A stretch of 64,000 nucleotides of DNA. Source: a virus. Positions within the stretch are counted from its first letter, which is position 1. Every line of letters starts with the position of its first letter. The notes under the pieces were generated by a model. It was given only the letters and a program-made list of their open reading frames with translations, searched no databases and was not told the DNA's origin. The stretch lies in IMG/VR virus record IMGVR_UViG_3300046504_000138, positions 1-64,000 of that record; one strand, written 5' to 3'. A program made the translations under genes and the position numbers. Positions 6,270 to 60,346 of this stretch are shown here, piece after piece.

Positions 6270-6278
6270 GTATTTATA
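6270..6278 (+). promoter_or_regulatory. Late-type promoter GTATTTATA
   Basis: Exact GTATTTATA 16 bp before the ATG at 6295. Confidence 0.7.
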
Positions 6279-9636: not shown

Positions 9637-10248
9637 ATGGAAAAATACATATGGTCATTGGATATTTCGACAACTAATGTGGGGTGTTCACTTTGGAACA
9701 ATAAAGGAAAGTTGATTGAATTAAAACATTTAGCATTAAAGTCAGATAAAGAAACTTCAGTGGATGATAGAGATATTCATAAAGCAGATGTCTTTAAAGA
9801 ATATTGTATTGCCTACAGACAGAGAATTGAAAATGATTTAAATGGTGAAATGCTACACATATTTGTAGAAGCACCATTACAAAATACTCCTAAGAATATT
9901 AATACTACAGCATTATTGCTTGGCTTTAATGGTATGGCAAGATATGTTCTATATGAAGTATTCGATTTAATGCCGATTAAGATCAGTGTATATGAAAGTC
10001 GTAAATTATTCTGTCCTGAATTAGTGAAGGTATCATTTAAAAAAGGCGAAAAAGTAGAAACTATGAGTTTCCCCGAAAAATATTTAAAAGAAAAAAAGTT
10101 GTATATTTGGGAAAAGGTTGCTAAATTAGAACCCCAAATCGAATGGTTTTATACCAAAAACAATACTCTTAAAGACATGTGTTTTGATATGTCAGATAGT
10201 TATTGTGTTGGTTTTGCCGGACTAAAGACTTTGGGTATTGTGAAATGA
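9637..10248 (+). CDS. RuvC-like Holliday junction resolvase (RNase H fold)
   Basis: A 203-residue protein with the RNase H-fold acidic pattern: LDISTTNVG (Asp9) on the first strand, FVEAPL (Glu near residue 79) on the fourth, and a C-terminal helix FDMSDSYCVG with two Asp near 185-187. This is the RuvC-type layout, so it probably cuts branched DNA before packaging or during recombination. Its stop overlaps the next start as ATGA, so translation is probably coupled. Confidence 0.75.
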   Translation: MEKYIWSLDISTTNVGCSLWNNKGKLIELKHLALKSDKETSVDDRDIHKADVFKEYCIAYRQRIENDLNGEMLHIFVEAPLQNTPKNINTTALLLGFNGMARYVLYEVFDLMPIKISVYESRKLFCPELVKVSFKKGEKVETMSFPEKYLKEKKLYIWEKVAKLEPQIEWFYTKNNTLKDMCFDMSDSYCVGFAGLKTLGIVK

Positions 10249-10553
10249 AATTTATTTATTTAATCCAATCATTAGAAAACGGGTATTATAAAATAGGTGT
10301 TTCAAAGCATCCACAAAAAAGAATACAAGGATTACAAACTGGTAATCCTTCACCTACAAAATTAATTGGGGTATATCAAACCGAATACGCAAATCAAATT
10401 GAACGAGCATTGCAAAGAAGATATGCACATCTTCATAAAGAAGGTGAATGGTTTGACTTGGGCATAAGTCAAGAAGTAAATTTCAAGAAGGAATGTCAAA
10501 AAATTGAAGACTCAATAGTGTTTCTTAAAGAAAACGGCAATGTATTTATATAA
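10245..10553 (+). CDS. T5orf172/MUG113-type GIY-YIG-fold protein
   Basis: 102 residues from the ATG at 10245, which overlaps the resolvase stop. The sequence FIYLIQ...YYKIGVSKHPQKRIQGLQTGNP, then IERALQRRYAHLHKEGEWFDL, is typical of the T5orf172 (MUG113) branch of the GIY-YIG superfamily. The function of such phage proteins is unclear; DNA binding or nicking is likely. An upstream in-frame start inside the resolvase gene is much less likely. Confidence 0.75.
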   Translation: MKFIYLIQSLENGYYKIGVSKHPQKRIQGLQTGNPSPTKLIGVYQTEYANQIERALQRRYAHLHKEGEWFDLGISQEVNFKKECQKIEDSIVFLKENGNVFI

Positions 10554-12709: not shown

Positions 12710-12747
12710 ATTTGCCTTAATGCTTTGAATTGAGGCAAATTTTTTTT
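12710..12747 (+). terminator. Rho-independent terminator
   Basis: ATTTGCCTTA (12710-12719) pairs with TGAGGCAAAT (12731-12740) with one mismatch, followed by seven T. It ends the 10628-12692 operon and overlaps the next promoter. Confidence 0.75.
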
Positions 12748-12754
12748 ATATTTG
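12725..12754 (+). promoter_or_regulatory. Host-type (Bacteroidetes) promoter
   Basis: TTG at 12725-12727 and TATATTTG at 12747-12754, 19 bp apart. The predicted transcription start is near 12760, just before the ATG at 12763. Confidence 0.65.
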
Positions 12755-12762
12755 CCATTAGT

Positions 12763-13392
12763 ATGAATCGAGTAGGCAATAGAATGTTTAGATGTGTGTA
12801 TGTATATGAATTTTCAGACAATTCCGCATATATTGGCTTAACATATAATTTAGAAAAAAGAAATATCAATAGAAAAACACAATCGTATGATGCTGTAACC
12901 AAACATATTTCTGAAACTAATTCAACACCAATAATAAAGCAATTAAGTGAGTATATACCAACTAATAAGGCATCATTATTGGAAAATGAATATATTAAAA
13001 AGTATAAAAATAATGGATGGAAAGTATTAAATAAGACAAAAGGCGGTGAAATTGGCTCTGGTGAAAGAATATGGACAAAAGAGTTATGTCAAAAAGAAGC
13101 ATTAAAATATAATACAAAGTCTGAATTTTATTATTTCTCAAATAAAGCATATACTGCAGCACAAAGATATGGTTGGTTAGATGAAATTTGTCAACATATG
13201 AAATCTCAAATTCATCATTGGACTATTGATGAAGTTAAATATGAAGCATTAAAATATAGTGCAAGATATGAATTTACAAAAAATAATAAAAATGCATATA
13301 TATGGGCAATAAGACATAATGTATTAGATGAGATTTGTCAACATATGTGCAGTATGATTGGCACAAATCAATATAAAGAAAAAATAAAATGA
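12763..13392 (+). CDS. GIY-YIG homing endonuclease
   Basis: About 209 residues from ATG 12763 (or 202 from ATG 12784). The GIY-YIG core is CVYVYEFSDNSAYIGLTYNLEKR. Downstream are two copies of a 40-residue DNA-binding-type repeat, each starting W.I/K and ending LDEICQHM. The first seven codons (MNRVGNR) resemble the start of the downstream primase (MSQVRGQ), suggesting that the element landed just inside the primase gene. Its TGA overlaps the primase ATG (ATGA). A still earlier TTG at 12730 lies inside the terminator and is unlikely. Confidence 0.8.
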   Translation: MNRVGNRMFRCVYVYEFSDNSAYIGLTYNLEKRNINRKTQSYDAVTKHISETNSTPIIKQLSEYIPTNKASLLENEYIKKYKNNGWKVLNKTKGGEIGSGERIWTKELCQKEALKYNTKSEFYYFSNKAYTAAQRYGWLDEICQHMKSQIHHWTIDEVKYEALKYSARYEFTKNNKNAYIWAIRHNVLDEICQHMCSMIGTNQYKEKIK

Positions 13393-38619: not shown

Positions 38620-39141
38620 TTATGGCAATTTAATATTATATGTCTTTGATAAATATAATAATGCTTCAGCATTTCCTTTACAATCCATTCTTGGATCATG
38701 ACTATGAGTTGTTATTCTATGTTTTTTCCATCTGTAATACATGTCGCCACTTGCACCAGAAAATAAATCTCCAATTCTTCTTGAGGACCAACCAAAAGGA
38801 TTTGAACCATTAAATTTGTGAAAATAATAGTTAAGACATACACCAAAATCATAACCATTATTATCTGAAATACCAACAGGCGAACCTTTGGAATTGTATC
38901 TTAACCATTCAGCAAATTCTTTCATCACCTTCTCAGGTTCATCGAAAGTCAGATGTTCTTCACGGCTAAAACCACTAATTGCCAATGCTTCAGGATTCCA
39001 TTTATCAGAAATGGGTCTAATTTTACCGTAAAATGTTTTGGATAATGATGGTTCGACAACAATTGCAGCAAAACACACCATTGAATATTCTGGCATAAGT
39101 GGACCATCACTTTCACAATCTACACAAATTAATTTACTCAT
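38620..39141 (-). CDS. DEDDh 3'-5' exonuclease (DnaQ-like)
   Basis: 173 residues. Exo I: CVDCESDGP (Asp8, Glu10). Exo II: ISDNNGYDFG near 90. Exo III: HDPRMDCKGNAEAL near 150, the H-x4-D of the DEDDh class. All catalytic residues are present, unlike the exonuclease-like gene at 30.1 kb. It probably trims DNA or RNA 3' ends. Start overlaps the HAD gene stop (ATGA), so part of the leftward operon. Confidence 0.8.
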   Translation of the reverse strand: MSKLICVDCESDGPLMPEYSMVCFAAIVVEPSLSKTFYGKIRPISDKWNPEALAISGFSREEHLTFDEPEKVMKEFAEWLRYNSKGSPVGISDNNGYDFGVCLNYYFHKFNGSNPFGWSSRRIGDLFSGASGDMYYRWKKHRITTHSHDPRMDCKGNAEALLYLSKTYNIKLP

Positions 39142-39626
39142 AATAATATTTTTAAAATTTTATCTTTTACTCCACTTTGTTTTATTCCTTCATTAGCACG
39201 GGTACATCTGACAAAGTTTTCTGGTATCCAAAGTTTTAAATCCAAATCATCAACTGCCACCCATTTAGTAAGTTCGTTTTCACTCGCATATTTATTAATT
39301 TCATATGAACGGCACTCTTCAAGTTGTTGCAGACTTGTGAACTGTACTCCCCAAGAAGAATTTGTTACTCCTGAAACTTTTGCCTTTACATTATTCCATT
39401 CAAAAATCTCATTTAATACTGCAATAGTATAACGATCTCTCCAATCAGATGAAATTATAATAATAGGATCGGTCTTTTCAACAATAGCATTAAAAACCTT
39501 TACGCATGTTTCATCAAAACGATAACAATCATACATAGGATGCCATTTTTTCCTATTAGTATAGTATTGTGTTGTCGTAGCAAGTACTCCGTCAATATCG
39601 AGTAATATATATCTTTTAATGCTCAT
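39138..39626 (-). CDS. HAD-superfamily phosphatase-like protein
   Basis: 162 residues. HAD motif I LLDIDGVLAT (Asp10, Asp12), motif II IIISSDWRDR near 57, and motif IV VAVDDLDL near 127. It resembles the HAD domain linked to RNA repair proteins. Predicted phosphatase or polynucleotide-end phosphatase. Overlaps both neighbours by 4 bp, so tightly coupled. Confidence 0.75.
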   Translation of the reverse strand: MSIKRYILLDIDGVLATTTQYYTNRKKWHPMYDCYRFDETCVKVFNAIVEKTDPIIIISSDWRDRYTIAVLNEIFEWNNVKAKVSGVTNSSWGVQFTSLQQLEECRSYEINKYASENELTKWVAVDDLDLKLWIPENFVRCTRANEGIKQSGVKDKILKILL

Positions 39627-41876: not shown

Positions 41877-42125
41877 ATGGAAAACGAAGAGAAGGGTATT
41901 GAAAATATCCAGAAAATAATAAAGACCAAAGGATTTCACATCATATTTAAAGGTGATCCTTCCGTTGGTATCTTTGATTCCAGGTGGGAACTCAATGGTG
42001 ATTTTTATTTTGATAATCAACAGGAACTTGAAGATTTTCGTAAAGAACTTCAGGTACTCTATGAAAACTATTGCGGTGAAGTAACAATTGAAACATTCGA
42101 AGAATATGCTGACAGGTTCAACTGA
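41877..42125 (+). CDS. Small protein of unknown function
   Basis: 82 residues, acidic, beta-alpha composition (FHIIFKGDPSVGIFDSRWELNG). It has its own phage promoter. Its 3' end overlaps the orphan start of an ancestral HAD gene. Confidence 0.55.
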   Translation: MENEEKGIENIQKIIKTKGFHIIFKGDPSVGIFDSRWELNGDFYFDNQQELEDFRKELQVLYENYCGEVTIETFEEYADRFN

Positions 42126-42177
42126 ATACAAACCAACAAACGTAATATTTCTTGATGTGGAGACGTATTTATATTAA
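42106..42177 (+). pseudogene. Orphan N-terminus of the HAD gene at 42980
   Basis: The frame MLTGSTEYKPTNVIFLDVET... stops at 42175-42177. Its NVIFLDV matches NCIFLDV of the downstream HAD protein, and homology ends inside the DxDG motif codons. This looks like the original start, cut off by insertion of the LAGLIDADG gene. Confidence 0.65.
42165..42173 (+). promoter_or_regulatory. Late-type promoter GTATTTATA
   Basis: Exact match 13 bp before ATG 42187, at the insertion boundary. The longer ACGTATTTATAT is also found at 54287. Confidence 0.65.
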
Positions 42178-42186
42178 AACATTAAA

Positions 42187-42996
42187 ATGGGAACAAAATA
42201 TGCGTCAAAACAAATAGAAAAAGAAATTATTTCATTATATGAAACAAAATCAGAGAACGAAATAGCATCAATTTATGGTAGAACACAATCTGGAATTAAT
42301 TTAATTCTAAAAAGAAATGGAATTCGAAAATTAAAAAAAAGTAGATTAAACATGAGTCATCTTGCACTTAATGTTGACTATTTTAAAGAAATTAATTCAA
42401 AAGATAAAGCATATTGGCTTGGCTTTATATGCGCAGATGGAAATATTAAAAAAACAAATAATAAAGTATCATTAACATCAAAAGATTTGGAAGTGATTGA
42501 AGGATTTAAAGGGGCAATTGGTGCAGAACATACTATTAGTAAGAGAAAATTTTTTGACAAAAGAACTAATAAAACATATATCGGATATTTAATTCAAATT
42601 GGTAATGAATTATTTGTTAATAATTTAATTGATTTAGGTGTGACATCAAATAAAACAGATATATTGAAATTTCCGAAGATTGATGAAAAATATTATTCAT
42701 ATTTTATTGCAGGATTATTTGACGGAGATGGGTTTGTTGGTATCAGAAATCATAATAAACTACGAATAAGTCTTATTTCAACTAAAGAAGTGTTAGATTT
42801 TATAAGTAATTTATTGACTAATATAGGAATTAATGAATTATCGAAAGTTAAAGTTTCGAAGAATAAAATAAATGTTTGGAAAACATGTCTATATAAAGAC
42901 GCAGATAAGTTTTTAAATTATATATATGGTGATGATAATTTTAAGTATTATTTAATGAGAAAATATAACATATTTAAAAATGCAAGTAGAAATTAA
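42187..42996 (+). CDS. LAGLIDADG homing endonuclease
   Basis: 269 residues. An N-terminal HTH (SENEIASIYGRTQSGINLILKR) precedes two LAGLIDADG motifs: YWLGFICADGNI near 78 and YFIAGLFDGDGFV near 176. The two acidic residues suggest an active single-chain nuclease. It interrupts the 5' end of a HAD gene and overlaps the re-made HAD start by 17 bp. Confidence 0.85.
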   Translation: MGTKYASKQIEKEIISLYETKSENEIASIYGRTQSGINLILKRNGIRKLKKSRLNMSHLALNVDYFKEINSKDKAYWLGFICADGNIKKTNNKVSLTSKDLEVIEGFKGAIGAEHTISKRKFFDKRTNKTYIGYLIQIGNELFVNNLIDLGVTSNKTDILKFPKIDEKYYSYFIAGLFDGDGFVGIRNHNKLRISLISTKEVLDFISNLLTNIGINELSKVKVSKNKINVWKTCLYKDADKFLNYIYGDDNFKYYLMRKYNIFKNASRN

Positions 42997-43582
42997 TAAA
43001 TTTCAAAATTGTATATTTTTGGACGTTGACGGTGTTTTGAATTGTCAATTATTTTATGATGAAAAATTCAAAGAACTCAAACATTTTGATGGCATACCAT
43101 TTTATAAAACCGTGAAAAAATACTTACGCAAATTATTTCATCAAAAAGAAATCAGTGATTTGAACTATTATAAATCACAAATGTGTGCCAAACGCATAAG
43201 TTGGCTCAATATATTATGCGAAGAAACTAATAGTGCAGTAGTCCTCAGTGCTTCTATGAGAAGTGGTTGGTCTGTTCCGGACTTACAGAAAATTTTTAAT
43301 TATTGTGGTGCTACCTTTATTATAATAGATAAGACGAGTCATTGTGATTGTAGAATCAGAGGTGTGGAAATCCAAAATTGGATGAAGGATAATTGTATGA
43401 AATGGTTTGGTGTTCAATATTATGATTTTCATCGTTATGCAATCATTGATGACGATTCAGATATGTTACTTTGTCAAAAGGGGAATTTTTTTCAAACTGA
43501 TAATTATAGTGGTTTAACTCCCACTACTTGTTATAAAATAAAAAGATTTTTTACACAAAAAACATTTCATTACAATGAATAG
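42980..43582 (+). CDS. HAD-superfamily protein (RNA-repair-type HAD)
   Basis: 200 residues. Motif I IFLDVDGVLN (Asp15, Asp17); AVVLSASMRSGW near 87; RGVEIQNWM near 128; and YAIIDDDSDML near 151. The pattern (T.A.VLS.S.R, then R..EI..WL, then DDD.D) is that of HAD domains found in RNA repair polyproteins. A second HAD of the same kind is at 39.1 kb. Its N-terminus differs from the orphan copy upstream. Confidence 0.75.
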   Translation: MQVEINKFQNCIFLDVDGVLNCQLFYDEKFKELKHFDGIPFYKTVKKYLRKLFHQKEISDLNYYKSQMCAKRISWLNILCEETNSAVVLSASMRSGWSVPDLQKIFNYCGATFIIIDKTSHCDCRIRGVEIQNWMKDNCMKWFGVQYYDFHRYAIIDDDSDMLLCQKGNFFQTDNYSGLTPTTCYKIKRFFTQKTFHYNE

Positions 43583-54241: not shown

Positions 54242-54355
54242 ATGAGAGACGAATTAGGTGACAGAATGAAGTTTTTTGTTTTATCTACGTATTTATATGG
54301 AAAATACGTATGGAAAACAATGACTATTATGTGTATGTCTATTTTAATCAACTAA
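54242..54355 (+). pseudogene. Orphan N-terminus of the Thg1 gene
   Basis: MRDELGDRMK at 54242-54271 matches the Thg1 start MVDELGNRMK at 55095 (8 of 10 residues). The frame then runs out into unrelated sequence. It is best explained as the original Thg1 start severed by insertion of the GIY-YIG gene. Confidence 0.75.
54289..54297 (+). promoter_or_regulatory. Late-type promoter GTATTTATA
   Basis: Exact match 12 bp before ATG 54310, at the insertion boundary; ACGTATTTATAT is shared with the LAGLIDADG insertion at 42.16 kb. Confidence 0.65.
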
Positions 54356-55074
54356 AATCGGGACAATGGATTTATAAAGAGCATGTTTTTAATTATCAAC
54401 CCTTTTACGTTGGTAAGGGTAGAAGAAAAAGAGACATCATGCATTTATGTCCATTCATGTTAGCATATAAAAACGTTAAAAATTCAACAATAAAATCAAT
54501 AATCAGTGAAATTGGAGAAATGCCAATTCATTATAGAATATACGAAAATTTGACCAATGAAGAAGCAATTAGCATTGAGATTGATTTTATAAAAACGTTT
54601 GGTAGAAAAGATAATGGCACAGGAATTTTATCGAATGGTACTGATGGTGGTGATGGTGCGAATAATTTTTCTGAGGATATCTTAAAAAAACTTGGCAACA
54701 ATCGTAGGAAGGTTTATCAGTATAGTCTTGATGGAATTTTTATTAAAGAATGGGAAAGTGTTAAATCAACCGAATTAGAATTTAAAAGTAGTGGCGATAT
54801 TTCTACGGCAATTAAACGAAATGGAACTTATTGTGGATATGTTTGGTCATATGAAAAACATGAAAGCATTAAACCAAGGACAAAATATCAACAACCAATA
54901 AAATATGAAAATATTAAACAGGTTAATAAAAGAACTAACGAAATTATACATACATTTGCAAATGCATTAGAAGCAGAAACCGAATTAAAACTAAATGCTG
55001 GTGCAAGAAACAAAATTTGTGATTGCTTGAATAATAAATTAAAGACTGCATACGGATATAAATGGAAATTTTAA
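54310..55074 (+). CDS. GIY-YIG homing endonuclease with NUMOD1
   Basis: 254 residues. GIY-YIG core YYVYVYFNQL...PFYVGKGRRKRDIMHL; an acidic helix with EAISIEIDFIKTFG; then NUMOD1-type DNA-binding repeats KVYQYSLDGIFIKEWESV...KRNGTYCGYVWSY and IKQVNKRTNEIIHTFANALEAE. It sits between an orphan Thg1 start and the complete Thg1 gene. Confidence 0.85.
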   Translation: MENNDYYVYVYFNQLKSGQWIYKEHVFNYQPFYVGKGRRKRDIMHLCPFMLAYKNVKNSTIKSIISEIGEMPIHYRIYENLTNEEAISIEIDFIKTFGRKDNGTGILSNGTDGGDGANNFSEDILKKLGNNRRKVYQYSLDGIFIKEWESVKSTELEFKSSGDISTAIKRNGTYCGYVWSYEKHESIKPRTKYQQPIKYENIKQVNKRTNEIIHTFANALEAETELKLNAGARNKICDCLNNKLKTAYGYKWKF

Positions 55075-55094
55075 ATAAACTAATATTTTGAAAA

Positions 55095-55892
55095 ATGGTT
55101 GATGAACTTGGAAATCGCATGAAGAAATTTTATGAGGACAGAACAAAAAGTTGGCTTCCACGCAGAACGTATACTATTATCCGTATTGACGGTAAAGCAT
55201 TCCACACATATACAAGAGGTTTAAAACAACCTTTTGATGAAGGTCTTGTCGAAGACATGGACGCAACTGCTTGTTACCTTTGCAAGAACATACAAGGCAG
55301 TAAATTTGCATTTGTTCAGAGTGATGAAATCAGTATTCTTTTAACCGATTTCGATAAAATAGATACAGATGCCTGGTTTGATGGCAACATACAAAAAATG
55401 GTAAGTGTTGCTGCAAGTCTGGCTACTGCAAAATTTAATCAGTTAAGACTTATTCGAACAAATAATGAAGTTGTTGAATTTACTGGTGCTGATATTGGAT
55501 TATATAAAATAGCAACTTTTGATGCACGTGCATTTACAATACCATGTGATTATGAAGTTGAAAATTATTTTATTTGGAGGCAAAAAGATGCTACAAAAAA
55601 CAGTATTTCAAGTGTTGCTCTGAGGTTTTATAGTCATAAAGAATTGGAAGGTAAAAACGGTGATCAAAAGCAAGAAATGATATTTCAAAAAGGCACTAAT
55701 TGGAATGATTATGCTCCAATGTTTAAAAGAGGCAGATTTATTTTCAAAAAAGAAGTTGAAATGGAAACACCATTTGTTTCAAAGGATAAAAAGCAAACCA
55801 CTTATATGCGAAATGTTTGGACAAGTGGCGAATGCCCAATATTTACTCAAGACAGAGAGTTTTTATTAAAATTTATTCCAAAAAATTCTTAA
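55095..55892 (+). CDS. thg1: Thg1-like tRNA 3'-5' nucleotidyltransferase
   Basis: 265 residues. Metal-binding RIDGKAFHTYTRG near 29 and QSDEISILLTDF near 75 are the hallmarks of Thg1/TLP, followed by VSVAASLATAKFN and the DATKNSISSVAL region. Bacterial and phage TLPs mainly repair 5'-truncated tRNAs by 3'-5' addition rather than adding G-1. Works plausibly with the RNA ligase upstream. Confidence 0.9.
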   Translation: MVDELGNRMKKFYEDRTKSWLPRRTYTIIRIDGKAFHTYTRGLKQPFDEGLVEDMDATACYLCKNIQGSKFAFVQSDEISILLTDFDKIDTDAWFDGNIQKMVSVAASLATAKFNQLRLIRTNNEVVEFTGADIGLYKIATFDARAFTIPCDYEVENYFIWRQKDATKNSISSVALRFYSHKELEGKNGDQKQEMIFQKGTNWNDYAPMFKRGRFIFKKEVEMETPFVSKDKKQTTYMRNVWTSGECPIFTQDREFLLKFIPKNS

Positions 55893-57569: not shown

Positions 57570-57755
57570 ATGATAAAAGAGACAAATTACAAGGTTGTAA
57601 GGGTTACAAAGACCGAATTCGAGTTGGATAATGGTGACATATATCCACATAACTTCGAACTCGAAGAAGACATCACCGTTGAAGAATTTCAAAAATTACT
57701 GGATTCTTCAAAAGAACTAATCGTAGATTTACTGAGGAAAATTGATGAACAATAA
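57570..57755 (+). CDS. Small acidic protein
   Basis: 61 residues from ATG 57570 (MIKETNYKVVRVTKTEFELD...), alpha-beta composition. Overlaps the start of the recombinase gene by 11 bp. Unknown. Confidence 0.5.
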   Translation: MIKETNYKVVRVTKTEFELDNGDIYPHNFELEEDITVEEFQKLLDSSKELIVDLLRKIDEQ

Positions 57756-58479
57756 TTTACTAAATATAAAAGAAGCATCGGAGTACCTCAATACCTCTAA
57801 GGAAACATTAAGGAATTGGGATAAGAGTGGTAAGTTACCGTCAATAAAAACTGTTGGTGGTCATAGGAGATACCAAAAGGAAAAACTTGATGAATTCATT
57901 GGAATTATAAAGTCAGATGAAACATCGGATGTTGTTGCCACCTATGCCAGAGTAAGTTCACATGAACAGAAAACCAAAGGTGATTTGGATAGACAATCTC
58001 AGAGAATTTCTGAATACTGTGCAAAGAAGAAATTGAAAGTTGAATATATAATAAAAGATGTTGGGTCAGGATTATCCGATACAAGGTCGGGATTTGTTAA
58101 GTTAGGGAATCTGGTTATTGATAAGAAAATCACACAGGTCATCATCGAGAACAAAGACAGATTAACAAGGTTTCAATATAACTTTGTGGAGAAGATGTTC
58201 GGGAGTTACGGAGTTAAAGTAATATGTATCGACAAACCAGACGATGAAGGGGATAAAGAGTTTATTAATGACCTTATGATGATAATTGCGTCATTCTCTG
58301 GAAGATTATATGGAGCACGAAGTGCTAAAAACAGAAGAGAAAAGAAATTAAAAGAAAGTAGTATAAATTTTCCATTACCCGATAACGCAAAGCCAGAAGA
58401 TTATGAATGTCCAATACCTAAGTTTACTGATGACGATTTAAGGACTTATGATATGAAAATAATAATGAAAAATAAATAA
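57745..58479 (+). CDS. tnpA: IS607-family serine recombinase (TnpA)
   Basis: 244 residues from ATG 57745. MerR-like HTH at the N-terminus (NIKEASEYLNTSKETLRNWD..GKLPSI) is joined to a serine-recombinase domain: VATYARVSSHEQK with the catalytic Ser, then LDRQSQRI and ENKDRLTRFQ. This is the IS607 TnpA arrangement. The matching tnpB lies 730 bp downstream rather than next to it. Confidence 0.85.
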   Translation: MNNNLLNIKEASEYLNTSKETLRNWDKSGKLPSIKTVGGHRRYQKEKLDEFIGIIKSDETSDVVATYARVSSHEQKTKGDLDRQSQRISEYCAKKKLKVEYIIKDVGSGLSDTRSGFVKLGNLVIDKKITQVIIENKDRLTRFQYNFVEKMFGSYGVKVICIDKPDDEGDKEFINDLMMIIASFSGRLYGARSAKNRREKKLKESSINFPLPDNAKPEDYECPIPKFTDDDLRTYDMKIIMKNK

Positions 58480-59209: not shown

Positions 59210-60346
59210 ATGAAACTAATCAGGTCAACCAAATGTAGTTTGAAATTCGCAACAGCGAAGAAGCAAAATGATTTATTAATCATCTTGAGTGAATACTCAA
59301 AGGTGGTTAATATCTTCATTGACTATTTCTGGCTGAATTCTGAGAAAGCAACAAAAGGAGAACTCCTTAAACCAGTTGTTGACATACCCGAAACTTGGTT
59401 ATCGGCACGACTACGAAAGGTAGCAGCAAGAGAAGCCATCGACATGATTAATGCTTCAAAGATTCGTTGGAAAGAAAAAGCAGCGAAGCCAGTTCATAAA
59501 GGTAATAGGATGTATGTTAGTTGTACTATTGCTGACTTAGTATCAACCAAAAACAATGGTTATAAAACCGAAGACAGCAGACTTTTTGATGCTTGGTTAC
59601 ACATTGCCTCAGTAGGTAATAAAATGATAATGGATTTACCGATTAAATATCATAAACACTTCAACAAATATAACAACATCGGTAAGAGATTGAACTCGTA
59701 TATTATCACGAAGAATTATGTTCAGTTTAGTTTTGAAATAATAACACAACCTAAGAAAGAAGACACGAAGTGTATTGGTATAGATACTGGTATAAACGCA
59801 TTGGCGAGTCTTAACAACGGAAATCAGTATGGTAAAGACATTAAAGGTTGCATCGAGAGAGTGAAAAGATGTAAGCAGAAGTCCAAAGGCTATTATGTTG
59901 CTAAGAGAGCATTAAAACAACGCATAGATGAAACAGCAAAGGAAATATTAGTGAAAGAGAATCCTGATTTGATAGTTGTAGAACGATTAAAGAATATGGG
60001 ATATAAAACAAAAGCCAAATGCTTGTTGGCTAAAAGTATCAGGCGTTCTATCGGAACTTGGAATTGGAAGTACTGGTTGAAAAGGTTAGAAGCACAATGC
60101 GAGATTAACCGTGTTAGTTTTCGTAGTGTAGCACCTTATTACACCAGCACAACCTGTCCAGTATGTGGTCATTCCGATAGGGGAAATCGATTAGGAGAAA
60201 TGTTCTTGTGTCTCAGTTGTGGTCACGGGGATAATGCAGATATAAATGCGGGTAAGAACATTTTGAATCGATTTCTCACGGGACTATACGGTGCTCGTTA
60301 CAAACAGGAAAATCAAGAGAATTTGGTTGTTACCAATTTTTTGTAG
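59210..60346 (+). CDS. tnpB: TnpB (RuvC-like RNA-guided nuclease)
   Basis: 378 residues. RuvC-like core: IGIDTGINALASL near 189 (Asp), LIVVERLKNMG near 256 (Glu), and CLSCGHGDNADINAGKNIL near 333 (Asp). The zinc ribbon CPVCGHSDRGNR...CLSC lies between motifs II and III. All three acidic positions are present. TnpB uses a right-end RNA to cut excision sites and so keeps its element; here the element boundaries and guide RNA are not evident. Confidence 0.85.
   Translation: MKLIRSTKCSLKFATAKKQNDLLIILSEYSKVVNIFIDYFWLNSEKATKGELLKPVVDIPETWLSARLRKVAAREAIDMINASKIRWKEKAAKPVHKGNRMYVSCTIADLVSTKNNGYKTEDSRLFDAWLHIASVGNKMIMDLPIKYHKHFNKYNNIGKRLNSYIITKNYVQFSFEIITQPKKEDTKCIGIDTGINALASLNNGNQYGKDIKGCIERVKRCKQKSKGYYVAKRALKQRIDETAKEILVKENPDLIVVERLKNMGYKTKAKCLLAKSIRRSIGTWNWKYWLKRLEAQCEINRVSFRSVAPYYTSTTCPVCGHSDRGNRLGEMFLCLSCGHGDNADINAGKNILNRFLTGLYGARYKQENQENLVVTNFL

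Follow-up and report, generated by a model that had tools for sequence, protein, structure and literature searches.

Genes and features of the HAD locus

The stretch analysed here, referred to as the window, comprises 64,000 nucleotides and derives from a 70,637-base IMG/VR virus record. A LAGLIDADG nuclease gene lies in it between a short orphan reading frame and a complete HAD gene. Relatives of the nuclease were surveyed in a set of 80 out of 538. Related loci are numbered with the prefix L, and nearly all of them are metagenomic contigs. The features of the locus are as follows:

41877..42125, + strand: gene for an 82-aa product (ORF), the left flank of the insertion
42106..42162, + strand: severed start of the original HAD gene, left as an orphan, MLTGSTEYKPTNVIFLDVE (HAD motif match p=0.0005; resembles the L011 N-terminus)
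42163..42174, + strand: promoter-like motif ACGTATTTATAT, whose core GTATTTATA lies 22 nt before the nuclease ATG
42187..42996, + strand: two-motif LAGLIDADG homing endonuclease gene, 269 aa (LAGLIDADG_3 E=2.5e-15; phrog_4645 7.8e-45)
42980..43030, + strand: rebuilt HAD start, MQVEINKFQNCIFLDVD, also seen in L012 and L029, contrary to the pattern in the rest of the gene
42980..43582, + strand: intact HAD gene, HAD_SAK_2, 200 aa (PF18143, E=9.4e-17)

The orphan frame runs from an ATG at 42106 through MLTGSTEYKPTNVIFLDVETYLY to a stop codon at 42175-42177, and its HAD sequence breaks off at the codon for the second Asp of DxD. Positions 42106-42125 are shared with the end of the preceding gene (82 aa), which is conserved and has a 93% identical relative in L029, and therefore only about 42126-42162 represents independent orphan sequence. 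When the orphan was compared with HAD motif I, none of 2000 dinucleotide shuffles reached the match found in the window (p=0.0005). An earlier note, made from sequence alone, had claimed that the orphan ends at the HAD catalytic motif just before the LAGLIDADG gene and that the HAD gene downstream is intact, with a different peptide leading into the motif. Both claims held, the former on the ORF coordinates and the motif match, the latter on the opening MQVEINKFQNCIFLDVDG at 42980, which is unlike the orphan N-terminus. Membership of HAD_SAK_2 is met by the family profile match and an intact motif I (DxDG, as FLDVDG), and comparison of the intact gene with L003/L004 gave a dN of about 0.18 and a dS over 1.4. 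The HAD ATG falls within the nuclease gene, producing a 17-nt overlap with its 3' end, and motif I has been recoded at synonymous sites, from CTT GAT GTG in the orphan to TTG GAC GTT in the rebuilt gene. This recoding could possibly block re-cutting, an effect that is inferred.

The nuclease ORF begins ten bases past the orphan stop codon and encodes the motifs LGFICADG and IAGLFDGDG, with D84, G85 and D179-G182 invariant across 16 relatives. Its AlphaFold model (pLDDT 87) is matched by Foldseek to I-Tsp061I, I-DmoI and I-SceI (2dch E=7.9e-11). The product meets the domain, two-motif and fold criteria for a LAGLIDADG nuclease, while its cleavage activity and biased inheritance are inferred. 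It shares the two-motif fold with I-Tsp061I and I-DmoI; these are intron-encoded, whereas the window nuclease is free-standing and has extra N-terminal helices, and some of its relatives, unlike the two intron enzymes, carry a C-terminal NUMOD1. Relatives from bacterial or archaeal genomes show at most 40% identity. A second HAD gene in the window (39138-39626) has no nuclease inserted. Contig 3300037164_000067 presents the reverse arrangement, with the first HAD gene empty and the second occupied. The nuclease tree did not resolve whether insertions in the first and second HAD genes belong to separate lineages.

The motif ACGTATTTATAT had earlier been read as a shared part of the insertion architecture, and in its exact form it occurs in the window at two nuclease genes only. 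That reading failed. The + strand holds 14 copies of the GTATTTATA core (1.1 expected; examples lie at 6270, 7144, 8515, 21436, 27145 and 31039) and the - strand one, and nine of the 14 sit 20-25 nt before an ATG (0.1 expected). Because the core is enriched and so placed, ACGTATTTATAT is considered promoter-like and was rejected as a homing mark, though these nuclease genes preserve it well. It is best interpreted as a promoter that these genes probably carry with them, its role in expression being inferred.

Relatives with and without the nuclease

Comparison of related loci revealed a present/absent polymorphism at a defined site: L012 and L018 are occupied and L005, L006, L009, L011, L013 and L015 are empty, with the HAD gene directly 3' of the same upstream gene. 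A search for nuclease-free HAD homologues with an orphan-like N-terminus, as the earlier note had proposed, found one such case, L011, whose protein begins MITGATEQYLNKYDHIIFLDVDG (MITGATEQ...IIFLDVDG). When L011 is set against the occupied L012, alignment is found on both flanks and is interrupted by the nuclease and the new start. On the strength of this L011-like N-terminus and the uninterrupted HAD gene after the same upstream gene, the 42106 frame is identified as the severed HAD start. The alternative that it is an unrelated conserved small gene, which would have refuted the proposal, was not borne out. Deletions have removed part of the relic in L012, L018 and L029, with the start or the coding sequence gone, as would be expected of dead sequence.

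The layout is repeated, again at the hhhDxD codons, at eleven more loci whose nucleases are related, and according to Pfam four HAD gene types are hit, namely two HAD_SAK_2 lineages, a PNKP-like HAD and NT5C. The nuclease-interrupted targets are:

HAD_SAK_2: L012, L018, L033, L034, L038, L040, L041
PNKP-like: L042, L189
NT5C: L044, L048

The order consists of an orphan ending in hhhDx(D), the nuclease, and a HAD gene with a new start at the nuclease end; in most HAD_SAK_2 cases a promoter-like GTATTTAT lies between orphan and nuclease. Examples of the motif in orphan and intact gene are:

L034: orphan IIFLDM, intact VLFLDLDG
L041: orphan YIFLDM, intact FIYLDLDG
L042: orphan IIFLDA, intact IIFLDIDG
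L048: orphan IIYVDM, intact IIYVDLDG
L189 (the published 735-kb megaphage LR756501, PNKP-like): orphan VIFLDV, intact VVFLDIDG

Orphans were assessed with a motif profile against dinucleotide shuffles, since comparing upstream with downstream peptides indiscriminately across the 80 loci had proved too weak. A severed-end relic is present at 12 loci including the window, of which eight are individually significant (the window, L012, L034, L038, L040, L041, L042 and L048; p=0.0005-0.0105). Taken singly, those of L018, L033 and L044 do not reach significance; they have the same end position as the window orphan. At L038 the HAD gene is mostly deleted, and no orphan was found at L039. The earlier claim that the codons of the catalytic motif are targeted is supported by this recurrence at the same codons of other HAD genes, with cleavage itself inferred.

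Two further observations concern related nucleases. In a sister clade (L028, L045, L047 and L049), orphan-like FLDL/WLDL/FVDY codons lie upstream with no same-strand HAD gene downstream, and in L028, L047 and L049 a HAD gene is located upstream on the opposite strand. L033 and L039 align at 94% through the nuclease, the second HAD gene and downstream sequence, beginning about 20 nt into the nuclease gene; their immediate left flanks differ, which suggests a recombination joint near the nuclease start.

The new HAD ATG overlaps the nuclease 3' end at nearly all loci, the exceptions being L189, where it follows the nuclease stop, and L038, where the HAD gene is mostly lost. In the window and L012 it lies in the last codons of the nuclease. 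In relatives of the NUMOD1 type it lies in conserved terminal IWKYE codons (TGGAAATATGAA...), the HAD proteins beginning MKNN, MKIN, MKMN or MNNN, and in L018, L033, L034, L040 and L041, all of this type, only the first 10-15 nt look nuclease-derived. Between the window and L012, DNA identity is 86% in the HAD 5' end, a tract that extends some ten codons beyond motif I, against 67% over the rest, a contrast that is the largest among 78 pairs (mean -2.5, sd 6.3). Given this contrast and an L012 HAD body that is closest to the nuclease-free L011, the 5' end seems to have been transferred together with the nuclease. This is considered likely, although the mosaic signal is clear mainly in this one pair, with weaker support from L029. 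The rebuilt N-terminus claimed in the earlier note is thereby supported, and amounts to more than a new ATG, since nuclease-carrying phages share it.

Two loci bear scars of apparent nuclease loss. In L029 the nuclease is absent and the orphan scar is joined to a start of the donated type (MEAQLNKFRNCIFLDLDG), and in L017 the second HAD gene starts inside a leftover ...KNHYWRYEN fragment corresponding to the nuclease end of L040. It is likely that in both cases the nuclease was lost and the donated start retained, and a cycle of invasion, decay and loss is one possibility with which they are consistent. Separately, L029:3272-3793 joins 5' sequence of HAD, in frame, to the region for the C-terminus of an adenylosuccinate synthetase-like protein, apparently through a deletion, unless the assembly is chimeric.

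Proposed mechanism and alternative explanations

These comparisons show the anatomy of the locus and its repetition across four types of HAD gene, as well as a mosaic 5' end and scars resembling nuclease loss. They probably point to a free-standing homing element of the LAGLIDADG type whose insertion gives the target gene a different start. Cleavage, the route of repair, protection from re-cutting and expression are inferred parts of this reading. In the proposed model, the nuclease would cut the HAD motif I codons (hhhDxD), with a predicted cut near GATGTTGATGG in the motif I DNA of the nuclease-free L011, whereas the rebuilt window sequence would be spared. Repair from the carrying phage would then copy the element into the target, and the severed 5' end of the original gene would remain upstream as a dead orphan. 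Besides the nuclease gene, the element would bring promoter-like sequence and a new start codon that overlaps the last nuclease codons; in the window and L012 it would also contribute a recoded motif I and roughly ten codons more. The target would thus remain one complete gene translated beside the nuclease, without intron, intein or gene splitting. The recoded motif should withstand re-cutting, and loss of the nuclease would leave the donated start behind.

Other explanations for this arrangement were considered. Under a tandem duplication, the phage would once have had a pair of adjacent HAD genes; the nuclease gene would have destroyed the first of them, and the second would always have been complete, with no start rebuilt. 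The orphan start and complete gene side by side, as well as the second HAD gene at 39138-39626, could be taken in its favour. However, no inspected nuclease-free relative has two tandem copies of this HAD gene, the 5' end of the complete gene groups with nuclease carriers whereas its body does not, and an overlap of the new start codon with nuclease codons is found at loci independent of one another, which leaves duplication very improbable. A self-splicing intron or an intein holding the nuclease, with the orphan and the downstream motif as exons joined after transcription, has in its favour that joining GATGT to GACGG would restore MLTGSTEYKPTNVIFLDVDG in frame. Nevertheless, only about 25 nt before and 35 nt after the nuclease ORF up to the motif are available, too little for a ribozyme, and an intein is excluded by the stop that ends the orphan frame. 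Rfam intron families gave no match at the locus, in a search that lacked a working positive control and also left a suspected intron, L088, unmatched. The orphans of L012, L018 and L029 lack a start or coding sequence, and the downstream gene has its own start. The criteria for a group I intron (a ribozyme core) or an intein (in-frame splicing domains) were not fulfilled, and this explanation was rejected as highly unlikely.

A less remote alternative, which is still regarded as unlikely, is an ordinary intergenic homing gene that targets the adjoining HAD gene in the manner of T4 seg/mob, with the orphan as a by-product of a single imprecise repair and the HAD start as a co-converted allele. 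Free-standing phage nucleases often adjoin their targets and convert flanking sequence (PMC2988022), and the shortness of the 5' tract in common resembles what co-conversion produces. Against it, the start codon comes from sequence overlapping the nuclease and not from a standard intergenic region. One accident cannot account for the orphan either, because the same end codons recur at many loci and in different HAD families.

Known systems and the Thg1 site

Replacement of the start by a homing element, the reading preferred here, finds its closest precedent in the mORFs of fungal mitochondria (Allomyces, Glomus; atp6, atp9, cox2, nad3), where a LAGLIDADG or GIY-YIG gene inserts into a protein gene and carries a divergent copy of the severed part, giving a hybrid gene with the native end left as a relic (PMC3630166). 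The phage element likewise keeps the severed native end as a relic, and a divergent replacement end carried by the element is indicated by the window-L012 identities (86% vs 67%), mainly in that one pair. In contrast, mORFs replace the C-terminus, in mitochondria, whereas the phage element replaces the N-terminus and start codon, its start overlaps the nuclease frame, and several non-orthologous targets share one motif. The T4 seg/mob genes and mobE in Aeh1 nrdA are free-standing phage nucleases that insert into functionally critical gene regions (PMC2988022). Like the window element, the seg/mob genes are phage-borne and free-standing, and some overlap neighbouring genes. Unlike it, T4-type insertions within genes split the protein into two working pieces, and no rebuilt start is described for them (PMC2988022). 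No description of N-terminal or start replacement by phage homing genes was found in the open-licence literature searched, subscription journals being outside its scope.

The usual accounts of how homing genes persist within protein genes invoke introns, inteins or split proteins. Start swapping would be another harmless route for invading a conserved active-site motif, with everything upstream of the cut replaced. The parasite would spread with the host gene unbroken, and new N-termini and new overlapping genes would result. It would also explain short orphan start fragments that annotation would miss, and a nuclease lineage crossing HAD genes through shared motif codons offers a testable route by which homing genes change target.

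A similar arrangement is observed in the window at the 5' end of the Thg1 gene:

54242..54286, + strand: orphan Thg1 start, MRDELGDRMK then diverging, as native Thg1 starts in relatives
54310..55074, + strand: GIY-YIG-like homing nuclease in the Thg1 5' end (LEM-3_GIY-YIG 2.3e-06)
55095..55892, + strand: intact Thg1 with rebuilt start MVDELGNRMKKFYEDR (Thg1 7.2e-28)

Native Thg1 usually starts M(R/K)D(E/A)LGDRMK, as M(R/K)DELGDRMK in L110, L111, L113 and L115, and the orphans before GIY-YIG-like nucleases read MRDELGDRMK in the window, MKDALGDRMN in L139 and MKDTLGDRMK in L160. Relatives of this nuclease also lie upstream of Thg1 in L139, L160/L162 and L157, and in L139, L160 and L157 the new Thg1 ATG is inside the terminal AYG(Y/F)KW codons of the nuclease. 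In L114 a different, LAGLIDADG-like gene occurs at Thg1, with the orphan MKDELGDRS. The claim of the same architecture at Thg1 with a different nuclease family therefore held (54242-55892; GIY-YIG in the window, L139 and L160), and the Thg1 5' end is likely a second start-swapped site, mostly with GIY-YIG-like nucleases and with a LAGLIDADG-like one in L114.

A bolder reading may be proposed, towards which the balance tips only slightly when its parts are taken jointly. These are that start swapping defines a widespread class of phage homing genes and solves the problem of damage to the host gene; that conserved 5' active-site codons would be cut and a new start supplied from an overlapping frame of the nuclease C-terminus; and that one nuclease lineage tracks motif codons across non-orthologous HAD genes, with other families acting likewise at Thg1.

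Two more ORFs of the GIY-YIG family are present in the window, at 10203-10553 and 12730-13392 (T5orf172/MUG113 and GIY-YIG). Beyond the Thg1 gene, the ORF at 57742-58479 was taken by eye for a serine recombinase of the IS607 type whose N-terminus is MerR-like, and that at 59210-60346 for a TnpB-like protein.
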